DNA of 47,680 nt from Candidatus Bathyarchaeota archaeon (GTDB lineage Archaea; Thermoproteota; Bathyarchaeia; Bathyarchaeales; Bathycorpusculaceae). How positions within the stretch are numbered: the first letter of the stretch is position 1; each line of letters begins with the position of its first letter. A model generated the notes under the pieces. That model was given only the letters and a program-made list of their open reading frames with translations, made no database searches and was not told where the DNA came from. The position numbers and the translations under genes are program-made. The stretch lies in contig JALHSY010000181.1 in the NCBI GenBank assembly GCA_022865455.1, forward strand, positions 1-47,680, given 5' to 3'. Shown here one piece after another: positions 3,711-41,297 of this stretch.

Positions 3711-4172
3711 GTGATGGAAATGCCAACAGAAAAAGGTAATATTCTGGCGGTTCTAGTCATCGCAGCCTTAGTCGTCGCTACCACAACCGTCTCTGCTCTC
3801 CTTTCGGCAAGCAAGACATTCTCTAATACCGGAAATGTGAAAGCCGTTGGGGTTGGAGTGTACGTGGACAGCGGTTGCAGCCAGCCACTTTCATCCATAA
3901 ATTGGGGAACGTTGACTCCAGGTTCAACGAGTAACTTCACGGCTTACGTTCGTGACGAGGGCACCACAGCATTGGTTCTAAGCAAGACAATTGGTAACTG
4001 GAACCCGTCATCTGCTTCAAGTTACATAACGCTGAATTGGAACCGTGAAGGTTATGTGCTAGGTTCAGGAGCGACTGTTCAAACGATATTTACTCTCTTA
4101 GTCTCGTCAAACATCAGCGGAATCTCAAGTTTCAGCTTCGACATAACGATAACTGGAACAGAAAGCACCTAA
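3711..4172 (+). CDS. small signal-anchored secreted protein (WG-x-L family, copy 5)
   Basis: 153 residues from GTG 3711, or 152 from ATG 3714; the latter fits a leaderless mRNA. Hydrophobic segment about 11-31 (NILAVLVIAALVVATTTVSAL), then SASKTFSNTG, GVGVYVDSGC, INWGTLTPGST, AYVRDEG, NWNPSSAS, YITLNWNREGY and the terminal strand SSFSFDITITGT. It aligns along its full length with the copy at 837. Likely an extracellular beta-sandwich anchored by its N-terminus or polymerised; the function is not established. Confidence 0.8.
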   Translation: MMEMPTEKGNILAVLVIAALVVATTTVSALLSASKTFSNTGNVKAVGVGVYVDSGCSQPLSSINWGTLTPGSTSNFTAYVRDEGTTALVLSKTIGNWNPSSASSYITLNWNREGYVLGSGATVQTIFTLLVSSNISGISSFSFDITITGTEST

Positions 4173-4277: not shown

Positions 4278-5852
4278 CTACTTCTTTTTGATCATACGCA
4301 GAATGTTTTCCTCGTATTTCAGTAATGGTTTTGCAAAGAGTTTTAGTAATGGTATCTTTTGTGTGATACGCTTAGCCATTTGGATTTCAGGAATCGTCAT
4401 TATTCCTGCGAGAGGCGTTAGCGTTGCGTAGGTGATTAGATATAGAAGTCCTCCGATTGGAACATTGAAGAGCGCGGGCAAATGCGTGAAATGAAAAACA
4501 AGAAGGGGTATGCTGCATACTGCTGAGATCAAATAGATCCTGACTATTGAGCGGACGTCAAACTTTATTTGGAAGTTTTTTCTTGCGATGTATGCGCCGT
4601 AAATCGTGCTCGCAGTGCTTGCTATGAGGGACGCGATTATTAGACCTGGAACGCTGTACGTTTTAGTAAGTGCGGGCGATAGGACGATGAGTGCGATCAA
4701 GGCGATTATGCTTGCTTTTAGTGTTGTTTTTGTTTCCCCGAGGCCGTTGAAGAAGCTTGAGAGTGTGAGATAACCTAGTCCCACGAGAAAATATGTCAAG
4801 CAGAAAATTGCCAAGAATAATGAGGCAGGTTGGTATGTTGAACCGTACACTATTTCGACTATTTCGTTGGAAAGCAGGATTAGCAGGAATGCTATCGGGA
4901 GTATGATCATGGCTGTGTATTTGTTTGCGAGTTTGAAGAAGCCTTCTATTTTGTTGTTTGTTTCTGAATCGAGTTTTGAGAATGCGGGAAGCAATGCTGT
5001 TGTGATTGGAACTGACAGAACCGCGACAAGTGCGGTGAAGTTTGCGGCTGCTTTGTAGTTTCCAATGTCAGTGTCAGTTGTGAAGATAGCAAGTATGAAG
5101 TTTTGGTAAAGTGGAACGAAGCTTGTGAGAAGCACTGATATGTAGAGCGGTGCTCCATAACGCATCAGAGTTTTCAAATCGTCTGAAATATTGTAGCTAT
5201 CTTTGACGTCTTGTTTTTCTCGTATCATAAGGAAGAGAAGGGCTATACCTGCGATTGCTGCGACAATGTAGCTTGTCACGTAGCCTATTATGGCACCTGC
5301 GACGCCAAATCCTAGGAGAACGAGTGATATTGAGATTATGGTTTTGGCAAGTGCTTGTACGTTTGCTGAGAGTGCGTTGTATTCTGTTTTATCTAGACCC
5401 ACGAAGGCTGATGTTGCGGTTGAGAATATCACTTGGAAGAGTATTGAAGTGGATGCTATTCTGATGTAGAAGGCAAGGTCTGGTCTTTGGAGGAAAAATG
5501 AGCTGAATATATCCGCAAAAACGTAGTTGATGATGAAGATAGCTATTCCTGTGGATGCTCTGAGTAGTAGTCCATATTCGATTATTCTTGCTAGGCGCTT
5601 GGTTTCGCCTTTTGATTTGAGGCTTGCTGTGAATTTGGTTATGCCTTGGTTTATGCCTAAGTCGGTGAATGTTAAGAGAAGAGAGGGAATGACAAGTGCT
5701 AGGGTGTATTGTCCATATAGTTCTGGGCCTAGAAATCTTCCTGTTAGTATCGAACCGATCGCCAGAATCACGGTTGAAAGAGCCGTTCCTGAGATTAGGA
5801 AGAAGCCGCTGCGTGCTGAGTCCTCTGCGACTTTGATTAATTCGTCTGCCAT
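4278..5852 (-). CDS. Wzx-like polysaccharide flippase (MOP superfamily)
   Basis: 524 residues with about 12-14 hydrophobic helices, the usual size for an O-antigen/lipid-linked oligosaccharide flippase. The N-terminus SGFFLISGTALSTVILAIGS-x-x-TGRFLGPELYGQYTLAL is typical of the family (helix 1 and the G-R-x-L-G-P-x-x-Y-G loop). It should move lipid-linked glycan across the membrane. It stands alone with ATG at 5852; a TATA-like catttaatac lies near 5918-5927. Its first 83 codons are repeated in the chimeric pseudogene at 7731-8639, and a separate C-terminal flippase remnant lies at 44738. Confidence 0.88.
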   Translation of the reverse strand: MADELIKVAEDSARSGFFLISGTALSTVILAIGSILTGRFLGPELYGQYTLALVIPSLLLTFTDLGINQGITKFTASLKSKGETKRLARIIEYGLLLRASTGIAIFIINYVFADIFSSFFLQRPDLAFYIRIASTSILFQVIFSTATSAFVGLDKTEYNALSANVQALAKTIISISLVLLGFGVAGAIIGYVTSYIVAAIAGIALLFLMIREKQDVKDSYNISDDLKTLMRYGAPLYISVLLTSFVPLYQNFILAIFTTDTDIGNYKAAANFTALVAVLSVPITTALLPAFSKLDSETNNKIEGFFKLANKYTAMIILPIAFLLILLSNEIVEIVYGSTYQPASLFLAIFCLTYFLVGLGYLTLSSFFNGLGETKTTLKASIIALIALIVLSPALTKTYSVPGLIIASLIASTASTIYGAYIARKNFQIKFDVRSIVRIYLISAVCSIPLLVFHFTHLPALFNVPIGGLLYLITYATLTPLAGIMTIPEIQMAKRITQKIPLLKLFAKPLLKYEENILRMIKKK

Positions 5853-6038
5853 TAGCCTATTCCACTTTGAACATTCACTTTATCCACATTGCTGTAAGGG
5901 CAATCTGTAGCGTCGTATTAAATGTTATTTCACCATAGAAAAAATCGTAGACAATTATGGCGCGCGATATTTCGGGATTAGAAGCATTCCTTTTAAAGGA
6001 TTACAACACAAGGATAGTAAAGAGAGAAGGTAAGCAGT

Positions 6039-6710
6039 ATGAATTCTAAAATGAGTTCTGTATTAGGCCTAATTGTCATTGTGACAGTTTCGTTGATTCT
6101 TGTTGGGCACGTGGATGCAGCTGATTGTGGGTTAAACTTGCCCTCAACGCCGGTGACAATTGAAGTTTGGAATGGCACAGAGAGCTATTATGAGACGCTG
6201 TTAAGCAACGTTCCTTCAGGTTACGACGTGACGAATCGTACCTACCTTGGATGGTGTGTCGACAGACGGTGTGTGATGCCGCGAAGTCCAGCGACTCATC
6301 AAGTGACTTTGTTTTCCAGTTGCAATCCGCCATCGGATCTGGCGGGTCAGAAGTGGGACATGGTCAACTATGTCTTGAATCACAGGCAAGGAGTAGCGGA
6401 GGATGTCCAGCAAGCCTTATGGTACTTTGTTAATTTGGTAGGCAACTATTCTCCTTCAAGTCCTACGGCATGGAGTATGATTAACGATGCAAACTTGAAC
6501 GGCGAAGGCTTTGTCCCGGAAACCGGTCAAGTAGTAGCAGTCATTTGCTATACAACGGATTCTAAAACTCAAATCACTATTATCGAGGTTGACAATCCGC
6601 CGCCTATACCAGAGTTTCAGTCATTCCTTGTTCTGTCACCATTCATGATTGCGACATTGCTGGCAGTCATAGTTTGCCGAAGAAAACGCGTTGGCATGGA
6701 AAGTAGATAG
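6039..6710 (+). CDS. secreted protein with PEF-CTERM-like archaeosortase signal
   Basis: 223 residues. A signal peptide (about 6-27, ending HVDAAD) precedes an ectodomain with GWCVDRRC (about 71-78), KWDMVNYVLNHRQG and DVQQALWYF. This Cys...Q-x-A-x-W-Y-F layout recalls Cys-Gln thioester surface domains, but that assignment is tentative. The C-terminus is tripartite: PIPEFQSF, a hydrophobic helix (LVLSPFMIATLLAVIVC) and a basic RRKR. That is the architecture of PEF-CTERM/PGF-CTERM sorting signals read by archaeosortases, one of which is encoded at 11378. ATG 6039 is preceded by gagaagg and a TATA-like ttttaaag near 5991. Confidence 0.75.
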   Translation: MNSKMSSVLGLIVIVTVSLILVGHVDAADCGLNLPSTPVTIEVWNGTESYYETLLSNVPSGYDVTNRTYLGWCVDRRCVMPRSPATHQVTLFSSCNPPSDLAGQKWDMVNYVLNHRQGVAEDVQQALWYFVNLVGNYSPSSPTAWSMINDANLNGEGFVPETGQVVAVICYTTDSKTQITIIEVDNPPPIPEFQSFLVLSPFMIATLLAVIVCRRKRVGMESR

Positions 6711-6712
6711 TT

Positions 6713-6989
6713 TTATGCCAAATTAATAGTGGCGGCACTGTGTATCAGATACTGGCATGCGGGTTCTGTCAAGTCCCTGTCGGAGTTCTTACGCTGTAAA
6801 AATTCGCCAGCTGTTTTCATAACATAGATTATTGTTGAGTCGGAGTCTATCTCTTCAAGCAAGCTGTCAATTTTTGTGATTGCAGAAGCAAGTTTTTCAA
6901 GTTGAAGGAAAGAGCATGGTGTTGTCGATCTTTTTATGTCCGAGGTACTGCGTCACATGTAGTATATTCTTGGCATAATTTTCTATCAT
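6713..6989 (-). pseudogene. tyrosine recombinase (integrase) C-terminal scrap
   Basis: From an ATG at 6989 the frame reads ENYAKNILHVTQYLGHKKID then NTMLF and stops at 6897. LGH followed by N-T-x-L-(Y) is the box II signature of tyrosine recombinases, but the nucleophilic Tyr is replaced by Phe. A plus-one shift recovers LQLEKLASAITKIDSLLEEI and a further 40 or so open codons to TAA at 6713, which I do not recognise. The N-terminal domain and the rest of the catalytic core are missing. The ATG overlaps the TGA of the toxin-like gene (ATGA), so the deletion joined the two reading frames end to start. Confidence 0.6.
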
Positions 6990-7348
6990 TTGATTTTTCT
7001 AATTTTAGCTGCTTTTTCCCTGACTATAATGAATTTACCTTTTGGATTTGTTGATTCTAGAGTCTTGATTAGGAGTTTGAATCTCTCCTCTGGATTTGTT
7101 GTGGTTGTTCTTATTAATATTACACCGCTTGTTGGCTTTTCCAACCTGAATATCAGCTTCCCGAAATCTTTATCATCGGTTATTAGGATTCTTTCTTCAC
7201 CCTCAGCCTTACTTAGAACTTCTTCATCGGATGATGAGGGCTTCCAGTCTCCAACAAATATGGCATCATATCCAGCTTCGACTAAAAGAGTTGCTAGTCG
7301 TTTACCAGTGCACTCATCAACAAGAAACTTGAACAATTCACTCAACAA
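6986..7348 (-). CDS. DUF5615 PIN-like protein, probable toxin
   Basis: 120 residues from TTG 7348. It has the Mut7-C/DUF5615 pattern: FLVDECTGKRLA (Asp11) near the start, EAGYDAIFVGD, then EERILITDDKDFGKL (Asp58, Asp59, Asp61). These acidic residues form the PIN-type metal site of predicted RNases. It overlaps the upstream DUF433 gene by 11 bases, the standard order of these antitoxin-toxin pairs. It is probably translated by coupling, since its own start is TTG with no good ribosome binding site. RNase activity is inferred from the family. Confidence 0.8.
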   Translation of the reverse strand: MLSELFKFLVDECTGKRLATLLVEAGYDAIFVGDWKPSSSDEEVLSKAEGEERILITDDKDFGKLIFRLEKPTSGVILIRTTTTNPEERFKLLIKTLESTNPKGKFIIVREKAAKIRKIK

Positions 7349-7583
7349 CTATCGGTACTACTTCCTCGCCGGCTAATACCCTCGCCGCATATTCTAATGC
7401 AGCCTTTACATCTTCCTCCTTTAAGTTAGGATATTCTTCAAGAATCTCCCTTAAACTCATGCCTCCAGCGAGCCTTTTAATAATGGCATCAACGGGGATC
7501 CTAGTACCCTTAATAACAGGCTTACCAACCATAACCTTAGGATTTACGACTATTCGATTTAGGAGCTTCTCTTCGGGTTCCAA
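7338..7583 (-). CDS. DUF433 antitoxin-like protein
   Basis: 81 residues from TTG 7583. The DUF433 core is complete: VVNPKVMVGKPVIKGTRIPV, then a helix-turn-helix-like stretch MSLREILEEYPNLKEEDVKAAL. Such proteins pair with DUF5615 or VapC-like toxins and are thought to neutralise them and repress the operon. The TTG follows a ggtgtgaatc leader, and TATA-like taatattt/aatataat sequences lie 10-45 bases upstream. The pair sits beside an integrase scrap, consistent with arrival on a mobile element. Confidence 0.82.
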   Translation of the reverse strand: MEPEEKLLNRIVVNPKVMVGKPVIKGTRIPVDAIIKRLAGGMSLREILEEYPNLKEEDVKAALEYAARVLAGEEVVPIVVE

Positions 7584-7730
7584 GATTCACACCACGAATT
7601 ATATTGCCCTGCCCAAATATTAAGATTCTCCACGCTTTTATGTCAGTTTCAAGGTTCTTAGAGTGACTCCTTTGATCCCGCCGTTGAAGTAGACCACGCG
7701 CACGAAAGGTGGTAGGGACTCATCGGAAGT

Positions 7731-8639
7731 TTAACTTTCTGGCTTTTTCACTATTAGCGTCTACTGGCGTGATGTTTGGGTTTCGTTGTCTTTTACTATG
7801 ACAGTTATGATGTATGTGCCTGCCGAGTCCGGGCTTGCTTCAAACAGGTAAGTGGAGATGTATACGCCTGCCTGATTCTGTACCGGTGTGCCGTTTACCC
7901 ACCATTCAATTGTTGAGGCGTCCCCGTCAATATCGGAACATGTAACGTTGAATATTTGGTTTTGTGTTTCGTTGATTGTTGGGTCTGTTAGGGGATGATT
8001 GGAAGTGATTTATGGTGGAGTGTTAGAAATTGTTATAATTGCTTCTTGTGGGGGTCCGTAGTCTTGGCCGTCGTATGGTGTGCAGATGATTTTGATTTGG
8101 TCTCCTTGCACAGAGTTTTCCGGTTCAAGTGTTTGGTTGGTTGCTCCTGCAATGTTCACCCAGTTGCCTTCTTCGTATTTTTGCCATTGATAAGTGAATG
8201 TGACGGTGTCTCCGTCAGCGTCGTATGGTGATGTTGGATTTGCTGTTAGCGTGTCATTGGCGTATGCTGGATCAGGTGTTATTGTAACGCTGCTGATGGA
8301 AGGTGGGCTGTTTTGTATTGTAACATTGGTTGACGTTTGAAGCGTTCCAAAGTCTGTTCCGTCTTTTGGTATGACTGTGAAGTACCATGTTTCGCCTTTT
8401 GCTTTGAGGCTTGCTGTGAACTTGGTTATGCCTTGGCTTATGCCTAAGTCGGTGAATGTTAAGAGAAGAGTAGAAACGACAAGCGCCAGGGTGTATTGTC
8501 CGTACAGTTCTGGGCCTAGAAATCTTCCTGTCAGTATTGAACCGATCGCCAGAATCACGGTTGAAAGAGCCGTTCCTGAGATTAGGAAGAAGCCGCTGCG
8601 GGCTGAGTCCTCTGCCACTTTGAACAGGTCGTTCGTCAT
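7731..8639 (-). pseudogene. chimera: flippase N-terminus fused to Ig-like surface-protein repeats, with nonsense codons
   Basis: Codons 1-83 (from ATG 8639; a GTG at 8651 is also possible) match the flippase at 4278-5852 at about 90 percent DNA identity. At KGET the frame switches without interruption to WYFTVIPKDG and Ig-like sequence matching the C-terminus of the 2029-residue protein (TITPDPAY, FTYQWQKY, GDQIKIICTPYDGQDYG). The three genes share the 12 bases tttcgccttttg at the junction. The Ig part continues in frame after TAA at 8010, then through a TAG (7761) where the paralogue has Trp (RQW), to TAA at 7731. Two nonsense codons in one frame mark it as decayed. Confidence 0.8.
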
Positions 8640-8647
8640 TTGTTGCT

Positions 8648-9298
8648 TCACGCAGCGTTAGCAGGTTTTTGGTTCTTGTAGTCTCTTATGACTGCGGTCG
8701 TGGAGAACACTATGGTTAGTGCGAGGAGGCTTATCAAGATTGGAGCTAGGCGTATCCCCCACGGCGTGTAGTTCAAGAGTAAGCCCACTATAGGGACCAG
8801 CGCAAGGCTCATGCCGAGGCTTAGGGCTACTCGCTCTATCGTGTCTAGGTTTTTTTCAGATGTTTCGAGGGTGCGTGCCAAACCCCGTGCGAATGGAAGG
8901 TCTTTTGGAAACAGGGCCTTTATGAAGCTGTATCCCGGTAGCCATAGAACGAAGATTGTGCCTAAGACGTATCTTATGTAGACCCACGGATACAAGTCTT
9001 CGGGTATTGCGAAAACCACGGCAATTGTCGTTGCCACGGTTGCGAGTGTGACCCAGTACCACGTGGCTGAAGTCTGCAGGTAATCGGCGAGGCTTGTTGG
9101 CTTTGGTTTGGGCTGGGCTGAGAAAGTTATTTTTCCTTCATCTTGAAGTTTCATGATAGATTCGAGTATTTGCCGCTCTGGGATTGGCTGTCTTTGTTTC
9201 ACTAGGTTTGCGAGCTCTTTGACGGTTGCTGGTCTATTGTTTTTCAAGACGTCAAGTATGGTTTCGGCAAGGCGGTCTTTTTCTGAATTGCGGTCCAA
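8648..9298 (-). CDS. DUF1616-type membrane protein with N-terminal winged helix
   Basis: 216 residues. Residues 1-60 are a cytoplasmic winged helix (AETILDVLKNNRPATVKELA, PERQILESIMKLQDEGKITF). Four membrane helices follow at about 79-98, 107-126, 157-177 and 184-204, including FVLWLPGYSFIKALFP, which is typical of DUF1616. The protein stops after helix four, without the extracellular half normally present. It overlaps the start of the chimeric gene by four bases if GTG 8651 is used, so it was once translationally coupled to a flippase. Its role is unknown; the setting suggests envelope glycan export or its control. Confidence 0.75.
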   Translation of the reverse strand: MDRNSEKDRLAETILDVLKNNRPATVKELANLVKQRQPIPERQILESIMKLQDEGKITFSAQPKPKPTSLADYLQTSATWYWVTLATVATTIAVVFAIPEDLYPWVYIRYVLGTIFVLWLPGYSFIKALFPKDLPFARGLARTLETSEKNLDTIERVALSLGMSLALVPIVGLLLNYTPWGIRLAPILISLLALTIVFSTTAVIRDYKNQKPANAA

Positions 9299-9456
9299 AG
9301 CGTTTAGCCTAGAGGAAAAGTGAGATATGTGTCATATAAGGGTGATTACAAAAATGAAAAGATGTAAATTATGTCTTTGGATGTTTTTAATGTTTGGAAA
9401 TGGGATAGAGAACAGTGCGGTTTTAGTTCGATGTTGCGTCTTTTGCTGTTTTGGCC

Positions 9457-10182
9457 TTATTTCTTCCTGCGTTTGACGGCGTAAAGCCCTAGAGCGCTGA
9501 ACGATGACAGTGCTATCAATGCTGGTGCTGCGTCTGGAACTACGAAGCCTGGTTGTGTGGGAGGCACTTTCATGTCGAATTCTGGGACGCATTGTATGCC
9601 GCAGCCTGTGGAACATTGTGACTTGCCTATTATGAGGACGAGCATTCTCGGGTGTGTTGAGGGCAGTGTGACAGTGAATGTCTGGATGGTTCCGTTTATG
9701 GGGTTTGAGAGGAATGGACCGTACACGTACCATAACCATTGATCTGCTGTGTTGTTCACTCCGATGTGTTCTTGCAGGGTTGAGACTTTGTATCTTCCGC
9801 CGCTAGTTGTGCCACTTGGAGGCACATTATCACTGTTTGTTATGACGCTGGTGAAGTTTGATTTCGGAAAGCTTGTTGAGCCTCCTGTCCATGTTACTGT
9901 GACTGGTCCTGTTAGGCCTTGATAGGATGCGTTTGTCATGACTAATAGTATGTTTGGAGAATAGGCTGTATGATGACCTGTGGTGTTTGTTCCGAAGGTT
10001 GCGGGGCTTGTGAGCATGATTGGCAATGGGTAGTAGCTGCCGTGTGGCCAGATTCTTATTGTGCCTGTGCCAGTTCCGCAGAGTGGGGTTGGTCCTGACC
10101 CTGCGTTGGTGGTTCCTGCGTACAGCGACGCAGCTATTAACGCAACTAGAACTATGGACGCTAGTATGTACAGCTTTTTCAT
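9457..10182 (-). CDS. secreted protein with tripartite C-terminal sorting signal
   Basis: 241 residues. Signal peptide 1-27 (KKLYILASIVLVALIAASLYAG); the ectodomain is rich in Gly, Thr and Pro with N-x-S/T sites. Four Cys cluster in QCSTGCGIQC and near PLCGTGTG. The C-terminus is PGFVVPDAAP, a hydrophobic helix (ALIALSSFSALGLYAV) and KRRKK: a short motif, membrane helix and basic end, as in archaeosortase substrates. The PGF is reminiscent of PGF-CTERM, but the placement before VVPD is unusual. It lies just downstream of the archaeosortase operon but has its own promoter. The function of the ectodomain is unrecognised. Confidence 0.75.
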   Translation of the reverse strand: MKKLYILASIVLVALIAASLYAGTTNAGSGPTPLCGTGTGTIRIWPHGSYYPLPIMLTSPATFGTNTTGHHTAYSPNILLVMTNASYQGLTGPVTVTWTGGSTSFPKSNFTSVITNSDNVPPSGTTSGGRYKVSTLQEHIGVNNTADQWLWYVYGPFLSNPINGTIQTFTVTLPSTHPRMLVLIIGKSQCSTGCGIQCVPEFDMKVPPTQPGFVVPDAAPALIALSSFSALGLYAVKRRKK

Positions 10183-10212
10183 TTTGATTCAACCAATAGT
10201 GTTTCTCATTAC

Positions 10213-10222
10213 TATTTAATAA
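10213..10222 (-). promoter_or_regulatory. TATA box of the gene at 9457-10182
   Basis: Read on the minus strand, attaaatagt/ttattaaata lies about 33-40 bases before ATG 10182. No Shine-Dalgarno sequence is evident, so a near-leaderless transcript is likely. Confidence 0.5.
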
Positions 10223-10305
10223 GTCAGTATGCCGTTGGCTTCTAGAAGATTTGTCCATTTTTCTATTTGTTCGATACGTTGGTGATAGTGCGTATGACAC
10301 GTGTA

Positions 10306-10518
10306 TTATGGGTTTAGGATTATGCTGGCGATTCTTATGGCTACGGTTGCCAAGAAGACAATGGTTAGTGCTGTTGTGGCGTTTTTGAGTTTTTTCCTGT
10401 CTATTCTCATGTTTATTTTCCCGTAGTATGGTGATAGCAGCTCTAGGGTTATGAGCAGTATTATGCTTGTTACGGCTGCGAGTAGACTTACGTCCCAGAA
10501 TCCGAGAGGAAACATCAT
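10306..10518 (-). CDS. small two-helix membrane protein of the archaeosortase operon
   Basis: 70 residues with two hydrophobic segments (about 9-29 and 49-67) separated by a basic loop NMRIDRKKLKNA. The start overlaps the stop of the upstream gene by four bases, so the two are translationally coupled. Not recognised as a named family. The operon position suggests an accessory of the archaeosortase or of the 274-residue partner. Confidence 0.7.
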   Translation of the reverse strand: MMFPLGFWDVSLLAAVTSIILLITLELLSPYYGKINMRIDRKKLKNATTALTIVFLATVAIRIASIILNP

Positions 10519-11339
10519 TGTTCTTTCTCTTCCTCCACGAGCACGCGGTAGTCGATGCTTATGCTCTTGCCGTTTTCACTTGTTCCTTGATTTTCTATGA
10601 TGATGGGCTTGCCTGTGGCTTTTGCCAAGGCGCACGCGATGGCGCTGCTTAACGGACAGCCTATGCCCGTGTGGAGTCTTGAAAGATTTTCAGTTTGCTT
10701 TGTTAGGCTTGCGTAGGCTGGGCTTTCTATTTTAACGTGGATCTGGTTGCTTTCGCTTGTCATTTCGAAGCTTTGGGCCATTTCTAAGTCTTCAACGAGG
10801 AGTTTTGGCATGTTTTGTTGCAGGAATGCCAAGTCTTCTTTGGTGAAGGTGGTTCCAAGTGTTTTCTCGAAGAGTTTTGTGAGTTCGGCGCCTGGAGGTG
10901 TTAGGATCATGGCTTGTAGGCGTTCTGAGAATACTTGGTTTTCCTGTTCTTGTGTTTGTTCAGGTGTTGGGAGTTTTGCTATTTCTTGTTTTGGAATGTA
11001 GGCTTTGTTCTCTTCCGGGTCTCTGAGGTACTTGGGAGGTAGGTACACGGCTTTTCCAGTGTAGTGTAGTTCTGTCATTATTTGGTCTAATGATTCGAGA
11101 GATGAAAGTGCCGTTGCTTCTAAGAGATTGCTTCTTACGTATTCTTCGGTTTGAATATAAGAGAGAATGAGGCCCCAGAAGAGCAAACCAAGACCTATGA
11201 AGGCGAGAATCGAAGAGGAGTAAATGGTTGACACGACTAAGGCTACTGCGCCGGTGCCTGCTAAGGTCCAGCCGGTCACTTTCATTGGATTGGTCTTTCG
11301 CTTGGTCCATTTTTCCAGGGCTTTTTGAGACGTGTGCAT
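10515..11339 (-). CDS. conserved membrane-anchored protein of the archaeosortase operon
   Basis: 274 residues. A basic N-terminus precedes two close membrane helices (about 20-40 and 44-62). The rest is a soluble domain, probably cytoplasmic: a charged middle with KEDLAFLQQNMPKLLVEDLE and a C-terminal TGIGCPLSSAIACALAKATG followed by KPIIIEN and ISIDYRVL. The function is unknown. It lies 38 bases after the archaeosortase and overlaps the next small membrane gene, so the three form one operon. A role in sensing or assisting the processing machinery is a guess. Confidence 0.7.
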   Translation of the reverse strand: MHTSQKALEKWTKRKTNPMKVTGWTLAGTGAVALVVSTIYSSSILAFIGLGLLFWGLILSYIQTEEYVRSNLLEATALSSLESLDQIMTELHYTGKAVYLPPKYLRDPEENKAYIPKQEIAKLPTPEQTQEQENQVFSERLQAMILTPPGAELTKLFEKTLGTTFTKEDLAFLQQNMPKLLVEDLEMAQSFEMTSESNQIHVKIESPAYASLTKQTENLSRLHTGIGCPLSSAIACALAKATGKPIIIENQGTSENGKSISIDYRVLVEEEKEQ

Positions 11340-11377
11340 ATTTAGTTCTCTTTTCTTGGTTTATGCTTCGCGAATTC

Positions 11378-13426
11378 CTATCTCAGCTTGATTTGTGCTT
11401 TCCAAGTTTGTGTTGGTTCGTCTCGTTGATTGGTTATTTCGCTCTCCAGTATTCCGGTTTTCTCCAGGTTCTGCAGCTTTTGTAGCAGTTGGTTTTGGTC
11501 GGTTGCTCGTCTGGTTAGGGTATTGTATTGAGTTGCGATGTTGTTCAGTGTGGGTGTTTTATTCTTCGGTAATGCTTTGATGGCGTCTATTATTTGTCTG
11601 TTTGGTTTGGAGAGTTTTTGGTAGGTTTTTGCGTTAGCGATTCTAAGTCTTCTTGATTCTAAAGCATACATTGCTATGATGGCGATGATGATGCTACTTG
11701 TTATTGCGACGGCGGAAAGGCCGTTTTGGGATATTATCATGGTCACTTGTGACCATGTTTTGATGGGTTGCCAGTAGTCGTTTATTGCCCTGGCGATGGC
11801 TGTCAGCTTGTCTTCGGTATTTGTTAGGTCGTCGGGGTTTTGGGGGTAGATTATGATGCTGATCATTACGTGTTTTTGCTGGGAGGTTGAGTTGACCGAG
11901 AAGGTTGCGGTTTCGTACCAGTAGAGGACTGCTTCAGTTTGACCGGTCGCCAAATCGTTGAATGCAAAGAAGCGAGCTATCAGTGGAGGATTTTGTGACA
12001 GTTGGATGTCTTCGAGTTTGATTTGGTTCACTGTCGGCTGTTTTCCACGTGATAATGGCCAGGTTATCAGGCATGTTTCCCATCTGTGAAGAGAAGAGAG
12101 TGTGGAGGATATCTGTATTGTTGCCCATACGGCGTCTTCAGTGTCGTTTTCGGGTGAGTATAGGTAGATGACTGCGAGGTCTTGTTTGGCTCGGGCTTCG
12201 AATTCTGTGTCGCGGTACCAGAATGAGAGGTCGTAACCTTGTAGCTGTGGCAATATATCTGTTGAGATCTGTTCTCCGGAGGGTGTGCTGGCGGTCACTA
12301 TGGGAGCGTTTGTTAAGACGAAGACTGGCGCTTGAATAGACATGAGGAGAATTACGCTTAGGATTGTGCAGGTTATTTTTGCGATGTCGCTCTTGTGTAG
12401 CATGTTTCTTGCTGATTTGATTATTCTGCCGCAGGCAAAGCAGAATGACTGGTTTGATTGCGTGCTGGGGATGCATTGGGGGCATTTTTCGGCAGGTTTG
12501 GCGAATATTTGTGTTTTGAACGCTTTTTCTGATATGGCCAGGAGTAAGAGCGTTCCAAGGAATACGAGTATCCATCCGCCTAGCAGGTGAAAGATTTGGA
12601 GGGCTAGGTCGATTCCGAATTGGTAGCCTATCAGTAGTATTATTGTGATTCTTGCTATGTTGAGTAGGTAGACGAGGGGGATCCCGATCATGAGTATCGT
12701 GAGTTTTTTCCATGGCTTGTCTCTGATTATGTAGGCCACGAAGGCGGCGAAGATGAAGAATCCGATTAGGCTGTAGATGCCTGAGCAGGCTATGTCTACG
12801 GAGAACGTTAGTGTTGATGTGTCTGGTCGGGTGATGATTATTGATGGGTTGCCGTATGCGTCGCTGGTGAGAGATGAGGGTATGCCCATGAGGCTTACGA
12901 GTGCGTTGGAGGCTTCTGAGCTTACTGTTGATAGTGTTGCGCCGATTGTGTACAGGATGTCTGAAGGTGGAGGGATCAAGAAGGCTAAGAAGGCCATTGG
13001 AAAGGCTAGTTGTCGTAGGGTTTGAGGGTTAAACAGTGTGAGGCACAGGCCAGACGCGAAAAGTGGCAGTGCGAGCAGGTGATATTCGAGCGGGGTGAAC
13101 GTGTATGATCCGTGCCAGTAGAGGAGTACGGCTGTTATGGACAGCAGCACGCCGGCGATTGCTGGCAGGTGCCTGGTTTCTCTTGGTTGATTTCTGTTCT
13201 CGAGTGGGATGACTGCAGCGAGCATTTTTCTTTTGCGGTATACAAGATAAGCGAATAGGAATGGTATGGCTAGTAGGTAGCTGGTTGTTTCGCTTTGGAG
13301 GGCATCAGTGAATATTATTGCTAGGTCTTGGCTGAAGAGGGCTATTGTAGCTATAAGTACGGTTGCTATTTTCAAGCCTAGCGTTATGCGAGTTTCCGTA
13401 AATATAGGCCAGCTCTTTCGTAGCAT
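11378..13426 (-). CDS. archaeosortase/exosortase fused to zinc ribbon, EpsI-like domain and winged helix
   Basis: 682 residues. Residues 1-300 are the polytopic exosortase core with the catalytic set Cys214 (DIACSGIYSL), Arg259 (LNIARI) and His280 (QIFHLLGGW). A four-Cys zinc ribbon follows (Cys315, 318, 329, 332), a membrane helix at about 350-372, an extracellular EpsI/DUF3485-like domain at about 375-560 (GYDLSFWYRDTEFEA, HRWETCLI), another membrane helix at about 568-590 and a cytoplasmic winged helix at about 603-680. Family members cleave C-terminal tripartite signals of surface proteins by transpeptidation. Candidate substrates lie at 6039 and 9457. The start has gaagggag upstream and a TATA-like box near 13485. 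Confidence 0.88.
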   Translation of the reverse strand: MLRKSWPIFTETRITLGLKIATVLIATIALFSQDLAIIFTDALQSETTSYLLAIPFLFAYLVYRKRKMLAAVIPLENRNQPRETRHLPAIAGVLLSITAVLLYWHGSYTFTPLEYHLLALPLFASGLCLTLFNPQTLRQLAFPMAFLAFLIPPPSDILYTIGATLSTVSSEASNALVSLMGIPSSLTSDAYGNPSIIITRPDTSTLTFSVDIACSGIYSLIGFFIFAAFVAYIIRDKPWKKLTILMIGIPLVYLLNIARITIILLIGYQFGIDLALQIFHLLGGWILVFLGTLLLLAISEKAFKTQIFAKPAEKCPQCIPSTQSNQSFCFACGRIIKSARNMLHKSDIAKITCTILSVILLMSIQAPVFVLTNAPIVTASTPSGEQISTDILPQLQGYDLSFWYRDTEFEARAKQDLAVIYLYSPENDTEDAVWATIQISSTLSSLHRWETCLITWPLSRGKQPTVNQIKLEDIQLSQNPPLIARFFAFNDLATGQTEAVLYWYETATFSVNSTSQQKHVMISIIIYPQNPDDLTNTEDKLTAIARAINDYWQPIKTWSQVTMIISQNGLSAVAITSSIIIAIIAMYALESRRLRIANAKTYQKLSKPNRQIIDAIKALPKNKTPTLNNIATQYNTLTRRATDQNQLLQKLQNLEKTGILESEITNQRDEPTQTWKAQIKLR

Positions 13427-17909: not shown

Positions 17910-20900
17910 TTATGGCTGTTGTTCTACAGTCAGGGTCCACTGGTGCGATGTTTGGGCCAAGCCGTCTGATACAATTACGGTTACAACATATGTGCCAGCT
18001 GAATCAATACCAGCCTCGAATGTGTATAGATCACCTGTGTGAACTAATGAGCCGTTTACATACCATTCGATAATAAGTTCGTCTATGTCTGGATCTAAGC
18101 AGGCAGCGTTGAATAGTTGCGTTTGATTTTCATAGATTGTTGGGTCGCTTTCTGGGAAATATGAAACTATTTCCGGTGGAGAGTTTGAGATTGTTATGGT
18201 GGCTTCTTGTGGAGTTCCGTAGTCCTGGCCGTCATATGGGGTGCAGATGACTTTGATTTGGTCTCCTTTTTCGAAGTTTTCTGGTCCTAGTGTTTCGTTG
18301 GTTACTCCTTGAATGTCGTACCAAGTTTCGTCGGTTGTGTTGTATTTTTGCCATTGGTAGGTGAAGGTTATGTTGTCTCCGTCTGGGTCGAATTCTGTTG
18401 GGTTGGCGGTTAGTGTGCTGTTTGTGTATGCTGGGTCAGGGGTGATTGTGAGGTTGGTGATGGATGGATGCGTGTTTTGGATTAGAACGTGTGGCGATTC
18501 GTATGTGTCACCTGGTTCTTTTCCGTCAGAAGGTCTTACTGTAAAGTGCCAAATTTCGCCTTTTGTGGTTAGGTAGTAGGGGACAATTAAGGTGTTGTCT
18601 AGTTCTGCTATATGTGTGCCGTTTCTGTACCATCTGACTTCTGTTTCTGTTAGGTTTTCTGGGTCGCCATCAGGGTCGAAGTATGTGTAGCTTGCTGTTG
18701 GGTCGTCGTTTGTTCTGGGAGTTGTTGGGAGTATTGTGAGGTCTTTTGCGGTTGGTTTGTTGTTGTAGCCTACTGTTATTGTGTTTGAGGATTTTGTTTT
18801 TCCGTCTTGGTGGCTGTCGTTTGGTGTTATTTCGCATCGCCAGGTGTCGCCTACGTTAGTTTCTTCATAGACTATGGTAGAGCTGTTGCTTAGGCCGTCT
18901 TTGGTTTCGTTATAGCGTTGGTAGATTTGTTGTGGTGATAGGCTTGTTGGATATATTCTTACTTCGTCTATTATGCCTTTGAAGTAGTCGAACCAGCCTA
19001 TGTATAAGGGATTTGGGCCGCTTGGTTGGATGTTGTAGTTTAGGGTTGTTGACTCTGCGGTTGTTTTTGTGGCTACTGCAAAGCCATTTACGTATAGTGT
19101 TAGGGCTGTACCTTTCTTGTAGGTGAGTACTACGTGGTACCAAGTGTTTATTTGGAGTGTCATGTTGTAGGTGATTTGGTTGTGGCCGCTTATCATCGAA
19201 CTGCCTGTGGCTGTCCAAATGCTTGCGAAGATCTTGTTTCCGCTTATGCCTATTTCGTAGCTGGGAATTCTGGCTATGGTTCTTGTGCCGCTTTGGGATG
19301 CTGTAAGGTATATCCAGTGTTCTATGGTGATTTCTGACCATTGTCCTCCTCCGTCTAGGGCGCTGCTGCCTGGGATTTGTATGAAGCCTCTGTTGAAGTT
19401 GTAGGCGCCTCCGACTTTTCCGTTACTGGTCCAGGTGACGTCTCTGACTATTATGCCGTTGTTGTTATAGCCAGAATAGTCTTTGACTGTTGTTGTGCTG
19501 TTTGTGTCGAAGGGCATTAATAGGTTTGTTAGCGATGTGTCGTTTCTGTACCAGTTGTAGATGTTTGTGACTTTGTCGCCGTCTGCATCTGTGGTTGTTT
19601 GGTTGTAGCAGATTATGTTGTTTCCGCTTTTTACTAGTATGGGGTCTGCTTGGGTTGGGGGTTCTGTTGGCAAGGTTGTAAAGGTGAATGTAATGTTTGT
19701 CCAGTGTGTGCCATCTGTTACGCTTACGGTCCACGTGTAAGTCTTGGAGTATTGAACTCCACTTACGTTTACTGTAAATCTGCCACTGTTAACGTTAATG
19801 CCGGTGTCCGAGCCGATGTCGGGGTATGTAGCGGCGGTATAGTTCATCAAGTCGTTTTGATAGTCTGTTATGTTGAAGCTAAGCTGTGTTAAGGAAGGTG
19901 AAATGTTGATTGCATTGTGTGGTGGTGATGGTGCAAAAACTACCGGTGCTTCTGGAATAGTTTCTTCGTTTCCTGTTGTATGGGATGTTGTTGGGTCCTT
20001 TTGGTTGTTATAGCTTGTTTGAATCCAAGCAGCAGAGCGAGCAACATTGGATATTCTTACTTCATCTATTGTGCCCTTAACCCATCTCTGATTTACATCG
20101 CTTATAAGAAGCGGATTCGTTGTTGAAATGATGGTTTTTCCAGCAGCGAAAGTACGGCTGAGCCTTTCAACGCCGTCAAGATATACTTTCATCACTTGTG
20201 CTTGTGTGTCCACAGTGGCTACTAAGTGATGCCATGTGTTCCATTTCCAGCCAATATTTCCCTCGATAGACTTTGTTGTGTCGTCGCTGAACTTGAGGTA
20301 CCAGTAAGTGCTTCCTTCGCCAGAACCCAATCTTAGACAGTACTGGCTATATGTGCCTTTGTTGACTAGGTTGATGTAATTGCCTGTTGATGATAGATTT
20401 ATCCATAATTCGATGGTTATGGCCGATGACGGGTTCAAATTAGGAGAATTGTTCACCCTTATGTAATCGTTTATTCCGTCGAACACGTCTGCTCCGTCAA
20501 TCTTTCCCGCTGCACTTTTGGTAATGCCGCCGTAGGCTGTTCCATGGTTGTCATCGTTTGTTGAGTCATATCGTGTTGTAGAACTTTCTTCTAGGTGCTG
20601 TACCATTGTGAAGTTGGAATCCCATACTGCATAAGAGTTTTGCTGGTTTAGTGCGTTGGGATTGTTATAGTACATGTAAATTTTTGTGTCTGTTGTTGAT
20701 GAAATTGAGGGTATTTTCACCCAAGCGACTAGCCGGCCTGTGTTGTTGTCGTAAAGTTCTATTTCGTGTGCGAGCTTATTGGAGTTGCTGTCTGTGAAGA
20801 CGATGTCGTCGCCGTCGTTTTGTGCCTTATATGGTAGGTCGGCATCTGTGATATCAATGAGTATTGGGAAATTGTTTTGATCAGCGATGACCTTGTTGCG

Positions 20901-23900
20901 GTCTATCGTTATTTGCTTGCGGTGTTGCCAAGCATTGTTCCACCATGGAGAGAGAGTTTGTGTTGTGAATGTGTAGGTTGTGTTTGTCCAGTGTGTTCCG
21001 TCTGTTGCGGTTACGGTCCATGTGTAGGTTGTAGAGTAGCGCAGGTTGCTTATTGGTAGGGTGTATCTCCCGTTTCCTTTGTTCATTTCGCTTGCGGAGC
21101 CTATGTCCGGGTTTGTTGTGACCGTGTAGTTCATTGGATTGCGTTGGTAGTCTGTTAGTGTAAAGCTTAGTTCGGAAAGTGAAACAGGTACTTCGGTTGC
21201 GCCGTTTAGGGGCTGTGGAGATGAAACTACTGGTGCTGGTCCGCCTTGGGGTTGCACGTATTCTGCTGCTCCAAGCCGGAACTCGCTGTAGAATTGTACT
21301 TCGGTTCTTGGTCTTGGGTTGGGTCGGCGTGCAGGCGTGTCAAAGGCGTATATGTCGCCGCTTTGGGTTGAAACGATTAGTTCGTTGTAGCCGTCGCCGT
21401 CTATATCCTGTGCCACTGCGTAGTTGAGTGTTCCAGCGAGCATTGATATTCCGTCTATGTTTCGGATTTCTCCTTCTTGGGTGATGTCTCCTGAGAGGCC
21501 TACTATTCCGTCTATTACACGGTATGTTTTGTCGATTATGAATATGCTTTTGTAGTTACATGCGATGATTTCCATTATGCCATCGCCAGTTACGTCCGCG
21601 ACTTGTGGACCGTAAAAGTTCTTTCCTATGTAGATTCTTGCGTCTATTTGCCATTTTACGAGGTCCCAGATAACCAAGTCGTCTGAAGTTTCGTCATGTG
21701 GATCAGCCATTAACATTTCTAGGTTTCCGTCGCCGTCTATGTCATAGACGCTTGGTTGATAGTGGGTGGGTGCGTCTTGTGGGATGCCTCGGGTTATTTT
21801 TATTGTGCTTCCGTCTGTTGCGTTAAGCACGGCTAACCCACCCTCTAGGTCGCCTATTATAATGTCTAGTATTCCGTCTTTGTTTACGTCAGCTATCATG
21901 GGGATTTGGCTACTACACAAGATTTCTGGGCGGTACCACCTTAATGTTAAGTTTCTAGCCCAAAAAGATACTACTCCTCTGCCATAGTCGTTGTCCCCAT
22001 ATTCTGGACTGTTCATGTACATGTGCCTATCGCCCATATAAAGTTCAAATTCTCCATCCCCATCGGTGTCCGCGATGGACAAGCCGCCGCTGCAAGGACG
22101 CCATGCAAAAGTTTGATGCAAAATGTTTCCATCGTAACTTAAGGCTGTGATCCTGCCTTTGCCGCTTAAACCATTGGATGTGTCTTCTGAGCCAACGAAA
22201 ATTATTGGATGACCATTTCCATCAATGTCGAAAATCACAGGGCTTGAATATATTTCTCTTCCTAAAACTGGCACTGTCCAATATGTGCTACCGTTGTTGG
22301 CATGTAGAGCAAGCAAGCCAGTAGGGTTCTCCAGTGGCACAACTATTTCTAGGATGCCATCGTTGTTTAGATCGACCATCTGGGGTTGAGCGTGATCACC
22401 GATGCTGCTATCAGAAACATTCCATATTCTACTTCCATCAATCCCATTTAGCACTATAACTCCGCCCTTTCCAGCATAAATGACCTCGTCTATGCCATCC
22501 CCGTCAGTGTCAGCTGCTAGTACTCCAGAAACGCCTCTATAGCCGGTTCTAGCCATCCATTTTTGCTGAAGTATTTTGGTTGTTGTTGTTAAACTGAAGG
22601 TTTTGTTTGTCCAAGCTTCTCCGTTATTAACGGATACGCCCCAGTAGTAAGTGGTTCCAAGGTTTTTCATCTGAGCTGCAATTACAGAATACGTTCCAGA
22701 CGGAACATTCTCGTAAATTCCAATGTCAATCCACGAGTTTGCCACTCTTTCTTTGAAAATTATGGTCATGTTTTTACTGCTTGGATCAAACACCTTAACG
22801 GATAGGGTTGGATTAGTGTATGTGTCTGTAGCTTCGTTCCTAGGGTCTTCATAAACTAGTGGTGAGGATAGATTCGGATTGGGCTCTTCATATCCAATCG
22901 TGTAGAATGTTGTGGGGTCTTTTTGGTTGTTGTGGCTGGTTAGTATCCATGCTGGCGAGCGAGTAACGTTTGAGATGCGCACTTCATCAACTGAACCTTT
23001 CACAAATCTTTGGGTTGCATCGCTGACAAGAACAGGACTTGTCGTCGCAATGATATTCTTGCCTTGACCATGACCAAAAGCCTCACCATATTTTTCGATA
23101 CCATCTAGGTAGATTTTTATGGTTTGTGTCTGAGTGTCTAACATGGCGACCAAGTAATGCCACGAGTTCCAAGACCATCCGACATTGCGTTCGACAGATT
23201 TTACTGTACCGTCACTAAACTTCACATACCAAAAGGTTCTTCCCACTTCAGGGCCCAACCTCAGATAGTACTGGCTATATGTGCCTTTGTTGACTAGGTT
23301 GATGTAATTGCCTGTTGATGATAGATTTATCCATAATTCGATGGTTATGGCCGATGACGGGTTCAAAGTTGGATTATTAGCCACTCTTACATAATCGTTT
23401 ACGCCATCGAACACGTCCGCACCATCGATCTTTCCCGCAACATTTTTAACGATACCACCATAAGCTGTACCATCATTCGCTTTGATTGTGGAATCATATC
23501 GACTTGATGTACCGGATTCTTCTAAATGCTGAACCATGACAAAGTTGGTATTCCAAACAGCCGAGGCATTTTGCTGATTCTGAGCATAAGGATTGCCATA
23601 GTACATGTAAAGTTCTGTGTCGGCAGTTGAGGAAAGGATTGGTATTTGCACCCATGCAACTAAGTGACCTGAATTTCCATCATAAAATTCTATTTCGTGG
23701 TTGAGTGTAGTGTTATGGTCGATTGTAAAGACGATGTCCCCGCCGTCGAATTGAGCCTTTGCCTTTGAATCGGGGTCAACAATGTCTATGAGGACGGGAA
23801 AGTTCTCTAAATTGGCTATTACTTTGGTGTGGTCTATGATTATCTGTTTTCTAAAGTTCCAGTTTTCATTCCACCATGGGGGTTGAGACCCTGCAGGTTG

Positions 23901-23999
23901 TATAAGGAGCGATAATGGAATAACAATTGCACTAATTATTAAGATAAAGGTGAGTGCTACGCTATGGAGTTTCCTTTTAAAAGGTCTTGCCTTACCCAT
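17910..23999 (-). CDS. 2029-residue surface protein: DUF2341, LamG, FG-GAP propeller, Ig-like repeats
   Basis: Signal peptide 1-38. DUF2341 at about 42-135 (WWNENWNFRKQIIIDHTKVI) is followed by LamG at about 165-355. An FG-GAP/VCBS propeller at about 485-915 has eight D-x-D/N-x-D-G calcium loops (for example DTDGDGIDEV, DVNKDGILDI, DIDGDGYNEL). A linker with fibronectin-like TYTWTVTATDGTHW follows, a second DUF2341+LamG at about 1018-1340, a third LamG at about 1490-1690, and Ig/PKD-like repeats to the end. The stretch 20339-20439 is identical to 23267-23367. No C-terminal sorting signal or anchor is present, so it is secreted or held by partners. Likely an adhesin or glycan-binding surface protein. 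gaggagag precedes ATG 23999. Confidence 0.85.
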   Translation of the reverse strand: MGKARPFKRKLHSVALTFILIISAIVIPLSLLIQPAGSQPPWWNENWNFRKQIIIDHTKVIANLENFPVLIDIVDPDSKAKAQFDGGDIVFTIDHNTTLNHEIEFYDGNSGHLVAWVQIPILSSTADTELYMYYGNPYAQNQQNASAVWNTNFVMVQHLEESGTSSRYDSTIKANDGTAYGGIVKNVAGKIDGADVFDGVNDYVRVANNPTLNPSSAITIELWINLSSTGNYINLVNKGTYSQYYLRLGPEVGRTFWYVKFSDGTVKSVERNVGWSWNSWHYLVAMLDTQTQTIKIYLDGIEKYGEAFGHGQGKNIIATTSPVLVSDATQRFVKGSVDEVRISNVTRSPAWILTSHNNQKDPTTFYTIGYEEPNPNLSSPLVYEDPRNEATDTYTNPTLSVKVFDPSSKNMTIIFKERVANSWIDIGIYENVPSGTYSVIAAQMKNLGTTYYWGVSVNNGEAWTNKTFSLTTTTKILQQKWMARTGYRGVSGVLAADTDGDGIDEVIYAGKGGVIVLNGIDGSRIWNVSDSSIGDHAQPQMVDLNNDGILEIVVPLENPTGLLALHANNGSTYWTVPVLGREIYSSPVIFDIDGNGHPIIFVGSEDTSNGLSGKGRITALSYDGNILHQTFAWRPCSGGLSIADTDGDGEFELYMGDRHMYMNSPEYGDNDYGRGVVSFWARNLTLRWYRPEILCSSQIPMIADVNKDGILDIIIGDLEGGLAVLNATDGSTIKITRGIPQDAPTHYQPSVYDIDGDGNLEMLMADPHDETSDDLVIWDLVKWQIDARIYIGKNFYGPQVADVTGDGIMEIIACNYKSIFIIDKTYRVIDGIVGLSGDITQEGEIRNIDGISMLAGTLNYAVAQDIDGDGYNELIVSTQSGDIYAFDTPARRPNPRPRTEVQFYSEFRLGAAEYVQPQGGPAPVVSSPQPLNGATEVPVSLSELSFTLTDYQRNPMNYTVTTNPDIGSASEMNKGNGRYTLPISNLRYSTTYTWTVTATDGTHWTNTTYTFTTQTLSPWWNNAWQHRKQITIDRNKVIADQNNFPILIDITDADLPYKAQNDGDDIVFTDSNSNKLAHEIELYDNNTGRLVAWVKIPSISSTTDTKIYMYYNNPNALNQQNSYAVWDSNFTMVQHLEESSTTRYDSTNDDNHGTAYGGITKSAAGKIDGADVFDGINDYIRVNNSPNLNPSSAITIELWINLSSTGNYINLVNKGTYSQYCLRLGSGEGSTYWYLKFSDDTTKSIEGNIGWKWNTWHHLVATVDTQAQVMKVYLDGVERLSRTFAAGKTIISTTNPLLISDVNQRWVKGTIDEVRISNVARSAAWIQTSYNNQKDPTTSHTTGNEETIPEAPVVFAPSPPHNAINISPSLTQLSFNITDYQNDLMNYTAATYPDIGSDTGINVNSGRFTVNVSGVQYSKTYTWTVSVTDGTHWTNITFTFTTLPTEPPTQADPILVKSGNNIICYNQTTTDADGDKVTNIYNWYRNDTSLTNLLMPFDTNSTTTVKDYSGYNNNGIIVRDVTWTSNGKVGGAYNFNRGFIQIPGSSALDGGGQWSEITIEHWIYLTASQSGTRTIARIPSYEIGISGNKIFASIWTATGSSMISGHNQITYNMTLQINTWYHVVLTYKKGTALTLYVNGFAVATKTTAESTTLNYNIQPSGPNPLYIGWFDYFKGIIDEVRIYPTSLSPQQIYQRYNETKDGLSNSSTIVYEETNVGDTWRCEITPNDSHQDGKTKSSNTITVGYNNKPTAKDLTILPTTPRTNDDPTASYTYFDPDGDPENLTETEVRWYRNGTHIAELDNTLIVPYYLTTKGEIWHFTVRPSDGKEPGDTYESPHVLIQNTHPSITNLTITPDPAYTNSTLTANPTEFDPDGDNITFTYQWQKYNTTDETWYDIQGVTNETLGPENFEKGDQIKVICTPYDGQDYGTPQEATITISNSPPEIVSYFPESDPTIYENQTQLFNAACLDPDIDELIIEWYVNGSLVHTGDLYTFEAGIDSAGTYVVTVIVSDGLAQTSHQWTLTVEQQP
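20339..20439. repeat. 101-base internal repeat, copy 2
   Basis: Identical to 23267-23367 in the same gene and frame. It encodes part of the second LamG domain (ITIELWINLSSTGNYINLVN). The flanking DNA of the two LamG copies is visibly more diverged, including at synonymous sites. Confidence 0.85.
23267..23367. repeat. 101-base internal repeat, copy 1
   Basis: Identical partner of 20339-20439, lying in the first LamG domain of the giant surface protein. Confidence 0.85.
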
Positions 24000-32584: not shown

Positions 32585-33886
32585 TTACGATTTAGAGATA
32601 ACTTTCATCATTTTGCCACTCTTATCGACTGGGATCTCATTGACAAAATGCACTTCAACCTCTACATCAGAATCCAAATTTAGCACTTTTCTAATATGCC
32701 CCACCAATTCGGTTTCCATACTTCGCTCATCAACATTCACATTTACCTTTTTAACATCAAATCTGAGTGAATTTTGTCTCTCTTGAACAACGCGCCATTG
32801 TTCAATACACTCGAACAACCTGAACAGCTGCATCGCATAAATAAACGCAAGAGGTGATAAAGGACGACCATCAGGAAGATACAGGATTGAATCGCTTCGC
32901 CCTTCCACCATTTTCATCAAAGGAAAATTAACACCACAGCTACACCTTTCTTCCGCTGAACCCACTCCATTATCGCCAACCGCATATCTAATCAACGGCA
33001 TTGCATAATTGAACAAACTAGTGCAAACCACTTCCCCCCTTTCTCCAGGGGAAACTTCTTCACCGTCCTTGTCCACAAACTGAATTATCAACGCATCCGC
33101 GTCTATATGATATGCAGTTTTATCAGGGCATTGCCAAGCCATCCTTTCAAATTCATTTGTGGCATATTGATCGTAAAGTGGTGCATCAAACACCTTTTCT
33201 ATCAGCCGCCTATAAGAATAATCTATCAATTCAGCACCACTAAACATGACTCTCGGTCTAATCGCATCCACTCCCTGCCTTTCAACCTCTCTCGCCAGCA
33301 AATACAGAGAACTTGAATAACCCTCTAACACGTCCGGCTTCAATTTCGCAACCGAAATCAACTGCTTAGACGGACTATCGTAAACCGAAAGCGTATTCAT
33401 CGCATAGATTTTCAACAGTCGCGAAAGCCTCTGTATTTTTTCAAAACGGTATGGCGACGTAATTACAACCCAATTATCTCTCATTTTTTGTCCACAAAAA
33501 ATATTGGCTCGCAAGTGTCTTGCTTTTCTAAACTCGTCCTCAACAGGGCTCAAATACAATGTCAAAGGCTGTCCAGTGGATCCGCTTGTGAAGACCTTTT
33601 TGAGCATGTTCCTGTCAAATCTCGTGGAGACCATCTGCGAAATGTTCATTCTAAATTCGCCTTTATTCATGATTGGTAGCTTGTTTAGGTCTTTGGCAGT
33701 CTTAATGTCGCTTGGTTTCAATCCAACTTTTTTGAACTTGTCATGCCAATACGGAACATGACTGAAGGCATAGTTTATTACACGTTTGAGTTCTACAGTC
33801 TGGTGCCTAAGAAGTCTATCACGACTCCAATACAAGTGCTTCTTGACAGCGTATAATCGATAAGCCGCTCGCAAATAATTAACCAT
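32585..33886 (-). CDS. CapK/PaaK-like adenylate-forming enzyme (copy 1)
   Basis: About 433 residues starting MVNYLRAAY, aligned with MPNL starts of the two paralogues; GAGGAG upstream fits. AMP-binding P-loop FTSGSTGQPLTLY (about 101-113), the signature YDQYATNEFERMAW near 238, WQCPDK, and a CxCG motif (RCSCGVNFP). The C-terminal A10 lysine motif is DKSGKMMK. The family includes phenylacetate-CoA ligase and capsular CapK; in glycan clusters the natural acid is usually unknown. It probably activates a carboxylate for attachment to a sugar. Confidence 0.82.
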   Translation of the reverse strand: MVNYLRAAYRLYAVKKHLYWSRDRLLRHQTVELKRVINYAFSHVPYWHDKFKKVGLKPSDIKTAKDLNKLPIMNKGEFRMNISQMVSTRFDRNMLKKVFTSGSTGQPLTLYLSPVEDEFRKARHLRANIFCGQKMRDNWVVITSPYRFEKIQRLSRLLKIYAMNTLSVYDSPSKQLISVAKLKPDVLEGYSSSLYLLAREVERQGVDAIRPRVMFSGAELIDYSYRRLIEKVFDAPLYDQYATNEFERMAWQCPDKTAYHIDADALIIQFVDKDGEEVSPGERGEVVCTSLFNYAMPLIRYAVGDNGVGSAEERCSCGVNFPLMKMVEGRSDSILYLPDGRPLSPLAFIYAMQLFRLFECIEQWRVVQERQNSLRFDVKKVNVNVDERSMETELVGHIRKVLNLDSDVEVEVHFVNEIPVDKSGKMMKVISKS

Positions 33887-33914
33887 GCATTGGACTCTCC
33901 TCATGTTTTACATG

Positions 33915-34991: not shown

Positions 34992-35021
34992 TCAATCACT
35001 TCTTAAGCTAACGCACCAGCT

Positions 35022-36350: not shown

Positions 36351-36379
36351 GAGAATCACTCTTAACATGCAACAATCTG

Positions 36380-37705: not shown

Positions 37706-37721
37706 TGTAATCTCCATGCGA

Positions 37722-38780: not shown

Positions 38781-38962
38781 CATTAAACCCTTCTGCAACT
38801 GAACCATCTACCTTTGCAAATGCTTTCATATTAAATCACGCGCTAGTATAAATTCGAATTATAACCTAAGGATGTATTTATGGCATTTCCTCTTCTAATC
38901 CAAAAAGTTTCATGAAAGGCTCTGTTGGGCGTCGCACAAGAGATTCACTCTTCAAACCTTAG

Positions 38963-41292: not shown

Positions 41293-41297
41293 CCAGT

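Follow-up and report, generated by a model that had tools for sequence, protein, structure and literature searches.

A probable chimeric pseudogene joining a flippase remnant to a surface-protein tail in an archaeal exosortase neighbourhood

The 47,680-bp stretch of DNA analysed here (the window), from an uncultured Bathyarchaeota archaeon, is one whole contig of a 2.01-Mb, 257-contig assembly. It contains a minus-strand open reading frame, 7731–8651, that begins as a flippase and ends as a surface protein. How such a hybrid arose, and whether it is still a gene, are the questions addressed here. Translation shows the flippase N-terminus passing into Ig-like sequence with the frame unbroken, and blastn aligns 5602–5836 with 8389–8623 (93.6% identity over 235 bp) and 18048–18565 with 7887–8401 (71.5% identity over 523 bp). 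The halves match two different genes, and the joint is sharp. The Ig-like half runs co-linear with the C-terminus of a 2029-aa protein and ends almost at the same point (Table 1). Numbered from the ATG at 8639, premature stops lie at codons 210 (TAA, 8010–8012) and 293 (TAG, 7761–7763), where the 2029-aa protein has Glu and Trp, respectively; the terminal stop is at 7731–7733. A preliminary description of the locus had reported 83 flippase codons running in frame into Ig-like repeats, followed by the two nonsense codons, and both observations were borne out. We interpret the ORF as a chimeric pseudogene made of a flippase 5′ remnant and a surface-protein 3′ end. The explanation as a whole, in which the donor of the 3′ end was a paralogue since lost and the rearrangement was of duplication or insertion type, has in our estimate a probability of about 0.65.

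Table 1. Position, strand and supporting evidence of the features at and around the hybrid.
Feature	Position	Strand	Evidence
Flippase-derived half, codons 1–83, two hydrophobic segments	8391..8639	-	94% DNA identity to 5602–5836
Ig-like half of hybrid	7731..8396	-	58–61% aa identity to residues ~1810–2027 of 2029-aa protein
12-bp microhomology CAAAAGGCGAAA at junction	8390..8401; also 5603–5614, 18554–18565	-	Sole exact 12-mer common to flippase and 2029-aa genes
2029-aa surface protein, Ig-like C-terminal repeats paralogous to hybrid 3′ half	17910..23999	-	Pfam DUF2341, Laminin_G_3, FG-GAP; divergence analysis
DUF1616 protein directly upstream of hybrid	8648..9298	-	Pfam PF07760; same direct upstream neighbour of intact flippases in G067 and G068
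Intact MOP-superfamily flippase, 524 aa, keeps ancestral downstream neighbours	4278..5852	-	PF01943; 55–57% aa identity to G067/G068 flippases behind DUF1616
SipW-like small secreted protein, convergent with flippase	3711..4172	+	51% aa identity to equivalent ORF in L055/L056; no Pfam match, named by inspection only
DUF433/DUF5615 (antitoxin/PIN-like) gene pair in inserted stretch	6986..7583	-	PF04255, PF18480
Putative secreted, possibly sortase-substrate-like gene in inserted stretch	6039..6710	+	54% aa identity to L055:3334–3972, ~51% to L057:5179–5862

Pyrrolysine read-through of the TAG was considered and rejected. A search for a pyrrolysine system found no PylRS above the cut-off, the weak matches being like those in controls, and the TAA would still stop the hybrid. 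As far as can be told the TAG is a stop, read-through being unlikely, and the hybrid carries two in-frame inactivating mutations with no alternative decoding above the cut-off. By themselves the two stops are not decisive, because simulated neutral decay from the 2029-aa sequence gives ~4 stops when 16% of positions are substituted and 6.5 when 30% are.

An exact search of the window found the 12-mer tttcgccttttg exactly three times, at the junction in each of the three loci (Table 1), in agreement with the preliminary description. Codon-shuffled controls gave an expectation of ~1.2 shared exact 12-mers between the whole flippase and the whole 2029-aa gene, and of 0.03 for the local 300 x 700 nt region. 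Since the local expectation is only 0.03, the position of the 12-mer at the joint exceeds ready chance. It falls within codons for KGE in both partners; in the homologue from the outgroup G115 these residues are conserved and the DNA is not identical (AAAGGTGAA). The 12-mer would thus favour a microhomology joint; it does not amount to proof, the true source of the Ig half being absent.

The two halves differ in their divergence. The flippase half is 91% identical to the intact flippase over 83 codons, with dN 0.05, dS ~0.23 (0.17 for codons 9–83 alone) and dN/dS ~0.2. The Ig half is 68% identical to the 2029-aa gene, with dN 0.29, dS ~1.2 and dN/dS ~0.25. Fourfold sites differ at 7 of 43 positions (16%) in the flippase half and at 29 of 60 (48%) in the Ig half (Fisher P=0.0008), whereas direct origin from the 2029-aa gene demands equal silent-site divergence in both. 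The preliminary statement that both halves had diverged from their sources needs refining, as the amounts are very unequal. Indels in the Ig half relative to the 2029-aa gene are in frame only, with sizes of one, two and five codons, and identity to the G115 homologue is alike for the Ig half (114/216 residues) and the 2029-aa protein (113/211). By these comparisons the Ig half has been under purifying selection and has evolved no faster than its paralogue. Its dN/dS, in-frame indels and equal outgroup distance suggest that it evolved as a working protein tail after the split from the 2029-aa gene, and the first two of these add weight to the case for a constrained past.

Because the halves are unequally diverged and the Ig half is constrained, the 2029-aa gene was probably not the direct donor; a paralogue of it, now absent from the assembly, is likelier, and on the simplest reading that paralogue had served as a working gene for a long time. 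Illegitimate recombination between two genes 13 kb apart, as first proposed, keeps its site and its class of mechanism and probably loses the present 2029-aa gene as partner. A search of the organism's own genome (2.01 Mb, 257 contigs) found no closer Ig donor besides the hybrid and the 2029-aa protein, a search of 163 genomes of the order found only separate Ig proteins and no fusion, and the postulated paralogue was not seen anywhere among the genomes searched. The 2029-aa protein also has an internal duplication (19963–20828 and 22885–23759, 72% DNA identity) of DUF2341/laminin-G type sequence.

Direct recombination of the present flippase with the present 2029-aa gene is unlikely, although several features suit it. 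The 2029-aa gene and the exosortase operon share a strand, with the gene upstream. This geometry suits a tandem duplication in which flippase codon 83 was linked to the 2029-aa tail and the remainder of the second copy was later lost. The two genes have the 12-mer in common, the gene that precedes the exosortase in the related genome G068 sits here between the two flippase copies, and the likeness of the flippase halves could be due to gene conversion. The threefold difference at fourfold sites and the purifying selection on the Ig half, free of rate acceleration, speak for a different donor, and no further duplicated sequence ties 5853–7731 to the flank of the 2029-aa gene.

The flippase copies bear on how far the divergence test can be trusted. 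They share an uninterrupted identical stretch of up to 62 nt (P=0.025), which hints at homogenisation by gene conversion. If this is real, the flippase half makes the event look younger than it is, and the test of unequal divergence could be weakened. Of the 23 nucleotide differences between the copies, 10 are derived in the intact copy, 7 in the hybrid and 6 fall to neither by a rough majority count over the distant outgroups G068, G067 and G044; the hybrid's flippase half has not decayed much faster than the intact copy. Codon 56 of the hybrid encodes Ser in place of a Pro conserved in all compared flippases, and third positions are biased, with G in the hybrid where the intact flippase has A. 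Codons 1–8 are unusually far from the flippase (8 of 24 nt differ, versus 15 of 228 in the rest). The sequence TGTTCAAAGTGG, found upstream of the intact flippase (5862–5873), recurs in hybrid codons 5–8 (8615–8626; P 0.004), perhaps as the trace of a small deletion by which the start of the hybrid was rebuilt.

Gene order in relatives indicates where the flippase belonged. In G068 (L055) the order is a homologue of the 6039–6710 gene, exosortase, a kinase-like gene, a small secreted protein, DUF1616, an intact flippase, a convergent SipW-like gene and a homologue of the window's 2165 gene. G067 (L056) has DUF1616, flippase, convergent SipW-like gene and 2165 homologue, up to the contig end. 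Only these two genomes, members of a single other genus (g19), show this ancestral order. In the window it is the hybrid that comes after the exosortase-to-DUF1616 block; the intact flippase stands 2.5 kb downstream, followed by the SipW-like and 2165 genes. The hybrid thus occupies the site behind DUF1616 where a flippase had been expected, and where both relatives keep an intact one. The first account placed it there correctly but did not notice that the remaining half of the ancestral neighbourhood is with the intact flippase. A ~250-bp flippase direct repeat brackets ~2.5 kb of other genes; between its copies lie the Ig tail, the DUF433/DUF5615 pair and the inverted 6039–6710 gene. The G068 homologue of that gene precedes the exosortase and has the operon's orientation, so the window's copy has moved and been inverted.

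Other relatives show the DUF1616-flippase pair at a second kind of locus. In G009 and Ast373 (L064, L069) a flippase directly follows the homologue of window 40696–41292 (minus strand), a gene of the glycosyltransferase cluster that encodes another DUF1616 protein (PF07760). G044 has a homologous DUF1616 gene and, ~2 kb further along, a SipW-like gene, with no flippase detectable in the interval; the G044 flippase sits in a cluster homologous to window 32585–42596, which holds glycosyltransferases. The pair is recurrent at two kinds of locus, so it was sound to expect a flippase behind DUF1616. The spacer upstream of the intact flippase is not significantly similar to the DUF1616-flippase spacer of G067 and G068 (P 0.08–0.12), and the stretch between 5853 and 8389 yielded no convincing trace of a second exosortase-DUF1616 block. 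The only genome of the same genus, G001, had no match to the hybrid, the DUF1616 gene or the 2029-aa protein.

Further features of the window touch the same gene families. The operon kept in G068 spans 8648–13426 (minus strand) and comprises the exosortase, kinase-like, small secreted protein and DUF1616 genes; the 682-aa exosortase family protein scores above the cut-off only for the general exo_archaeo model (TIGR04178) and below all specific exosortase/archaeosortase cut-offs. At 44751–45482 (minus strand) lies a C-terminal flippase fragment, ~30% identical to residues 290–509 of the intact flippase and with two TAG codons in the matched stretch. This is probably another flippase pseudogene; the glycosyltransferase genes close by mark a place at which some relatives have their flippase. 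Three related small secreted proteins, SipW-like by inspection (837–1280, 3711–4172 and 46246–46803, plus strand), match one same gene in relatives, and a direct repeat of ~290 bp (442–732 and 1928–2217) is 81.5% identical.

An assembly or strain chimera, with a joint present in no cell, is improbable, and the preliminary description had also thought an artefact the less likely case. The assembly is of metagenome type and fragmented into 257 contigs, and the flippase halves differ by ~6–9%, as two co-occurring strains might. Yet the joint contains no Ns, and the flanks on either outer side belong to the ancestral neighbourhood. Assemblers normally use k-mers longer than 12 bp, and the 12-bp overlap falls below that length.

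The best explanation, a chimeric pseudogene with a lost paralogous donor, would run as follows. Hybrid codons 1–83 would be the 5′ remnant of a flippase at its ancestral place behind DUF1616, and the rest the 3′ end of a second surface-protein gene. The joint may have been made by illegitimate recombination at ~12 bp of microhomology. An event of duplication or insertion type would have split the DUF1616-flippase-SipW-like arrangement and left the direct repeat. The DUF1616 side would have stayed with the hybrid and the SipW-like side with the intact flippase, the fusion being the novel joint. The two nonsense codons would have been gained afterwards, flippase function staying with the intact copy. 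Candidate routes are a tandem duplication with subsequent deletions, a duplication with a later microhomology deletion, and single-crossover integration. For the last, circular or foreign DNA carrying the flippase 5′ fragment with the Ig tail, the DUF433/DUF5615 pair and the 6039–6710 gene would have entered the resident flippase, its joint made elsewhere. This would produce the direct repeat at once around a stretch with a toxin-antitoxin-like pair, and would fit the intermediate divergence of the flippase copies and the third-position G-for-A bias; it is nevertheless very improbable, as no integrase, replication gene or donor element was found and the 6039–6710 gene belongs to the same neighbourhood in relatives.

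The hybrid is unlikely to encode a working product. Its first 83 codons correspond to the N-terminus of MOP-superfamily polysaccharide flippases (Polysacc_synt, PF01943), with two hydrophobic segments in the first 70 residues by hydropathy and a match to profile positions 2–70 of 274 only. Unlike those flippases it lacks all later helices of the full transmembrane set and hence cannot transport. Under the topology known for the MOP superfamily, the joint would fall on the cytoplasmic side. The Ig domains, following a two-helix hairpin, would therefore lie in the cytoplasm and not be displayed. DNA searches of 91 genomes of the family found separate flippases or Ig proteins only, and no fusion occurred among the matches in GTDB genome contigs; an intact, conserved fusion, which would have told against decay, was thus seen in none of the genomes searched. 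Given the cytoplasmic Ig domains, the two stops and the absence of the fusion from every relative searched, a functional gene is unlikely, and the hybrid very probably could not work. There is only a slight chance that it was once a new gene, a flippase-derived membrane hairpin anchoring Ig-like domains, and was recently inactivated. The frame kept across the joint, the dN/dS of the flippase half and the constraint on the Ig half agree with such a past, but separate histories before fusion account for the constraint and a random joint is in frame one third of the time; the predicted topology and the lack of the fusion in the relatives searched also weigh against it.

The hybrid resembles microhomology-mediated chimeric pseudogenes formed at tandem-duplication or deletion joints in its joined truncated 5′ and 3′ genes and its later nonsense mutations and, as far as the 2029-aa paralogue can stand in for the true Ig parent, in its short exact homology. 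Unlike these, its joint is in frame and its 3′ donor is apparently no longer present. Over ~215 residues it is homologous to archaeal surface-protein C-terminal Ig-like repeats, such as those of the 2029-aa protein and of an 849-aa G115 ORF; unlike those proteins it has no signal peptide or remaining protein, and it has two stops. Nothing specific to such a hybrid was found in the literature.

The hybrid is an ordinary kind of event, well preserved, and a fossil of local DNA rearrangement, with no new kind of gene. Its biological weight is modest. Comparing silent-site divergence between the halves of a chimera can expose a wrong guess at the donor. The hybrid records the reshuffling of cell-surface gene neighbourhoods in uncultured archaea, in which an exosortase/flippase operon was rearranged and one joint was preserved.
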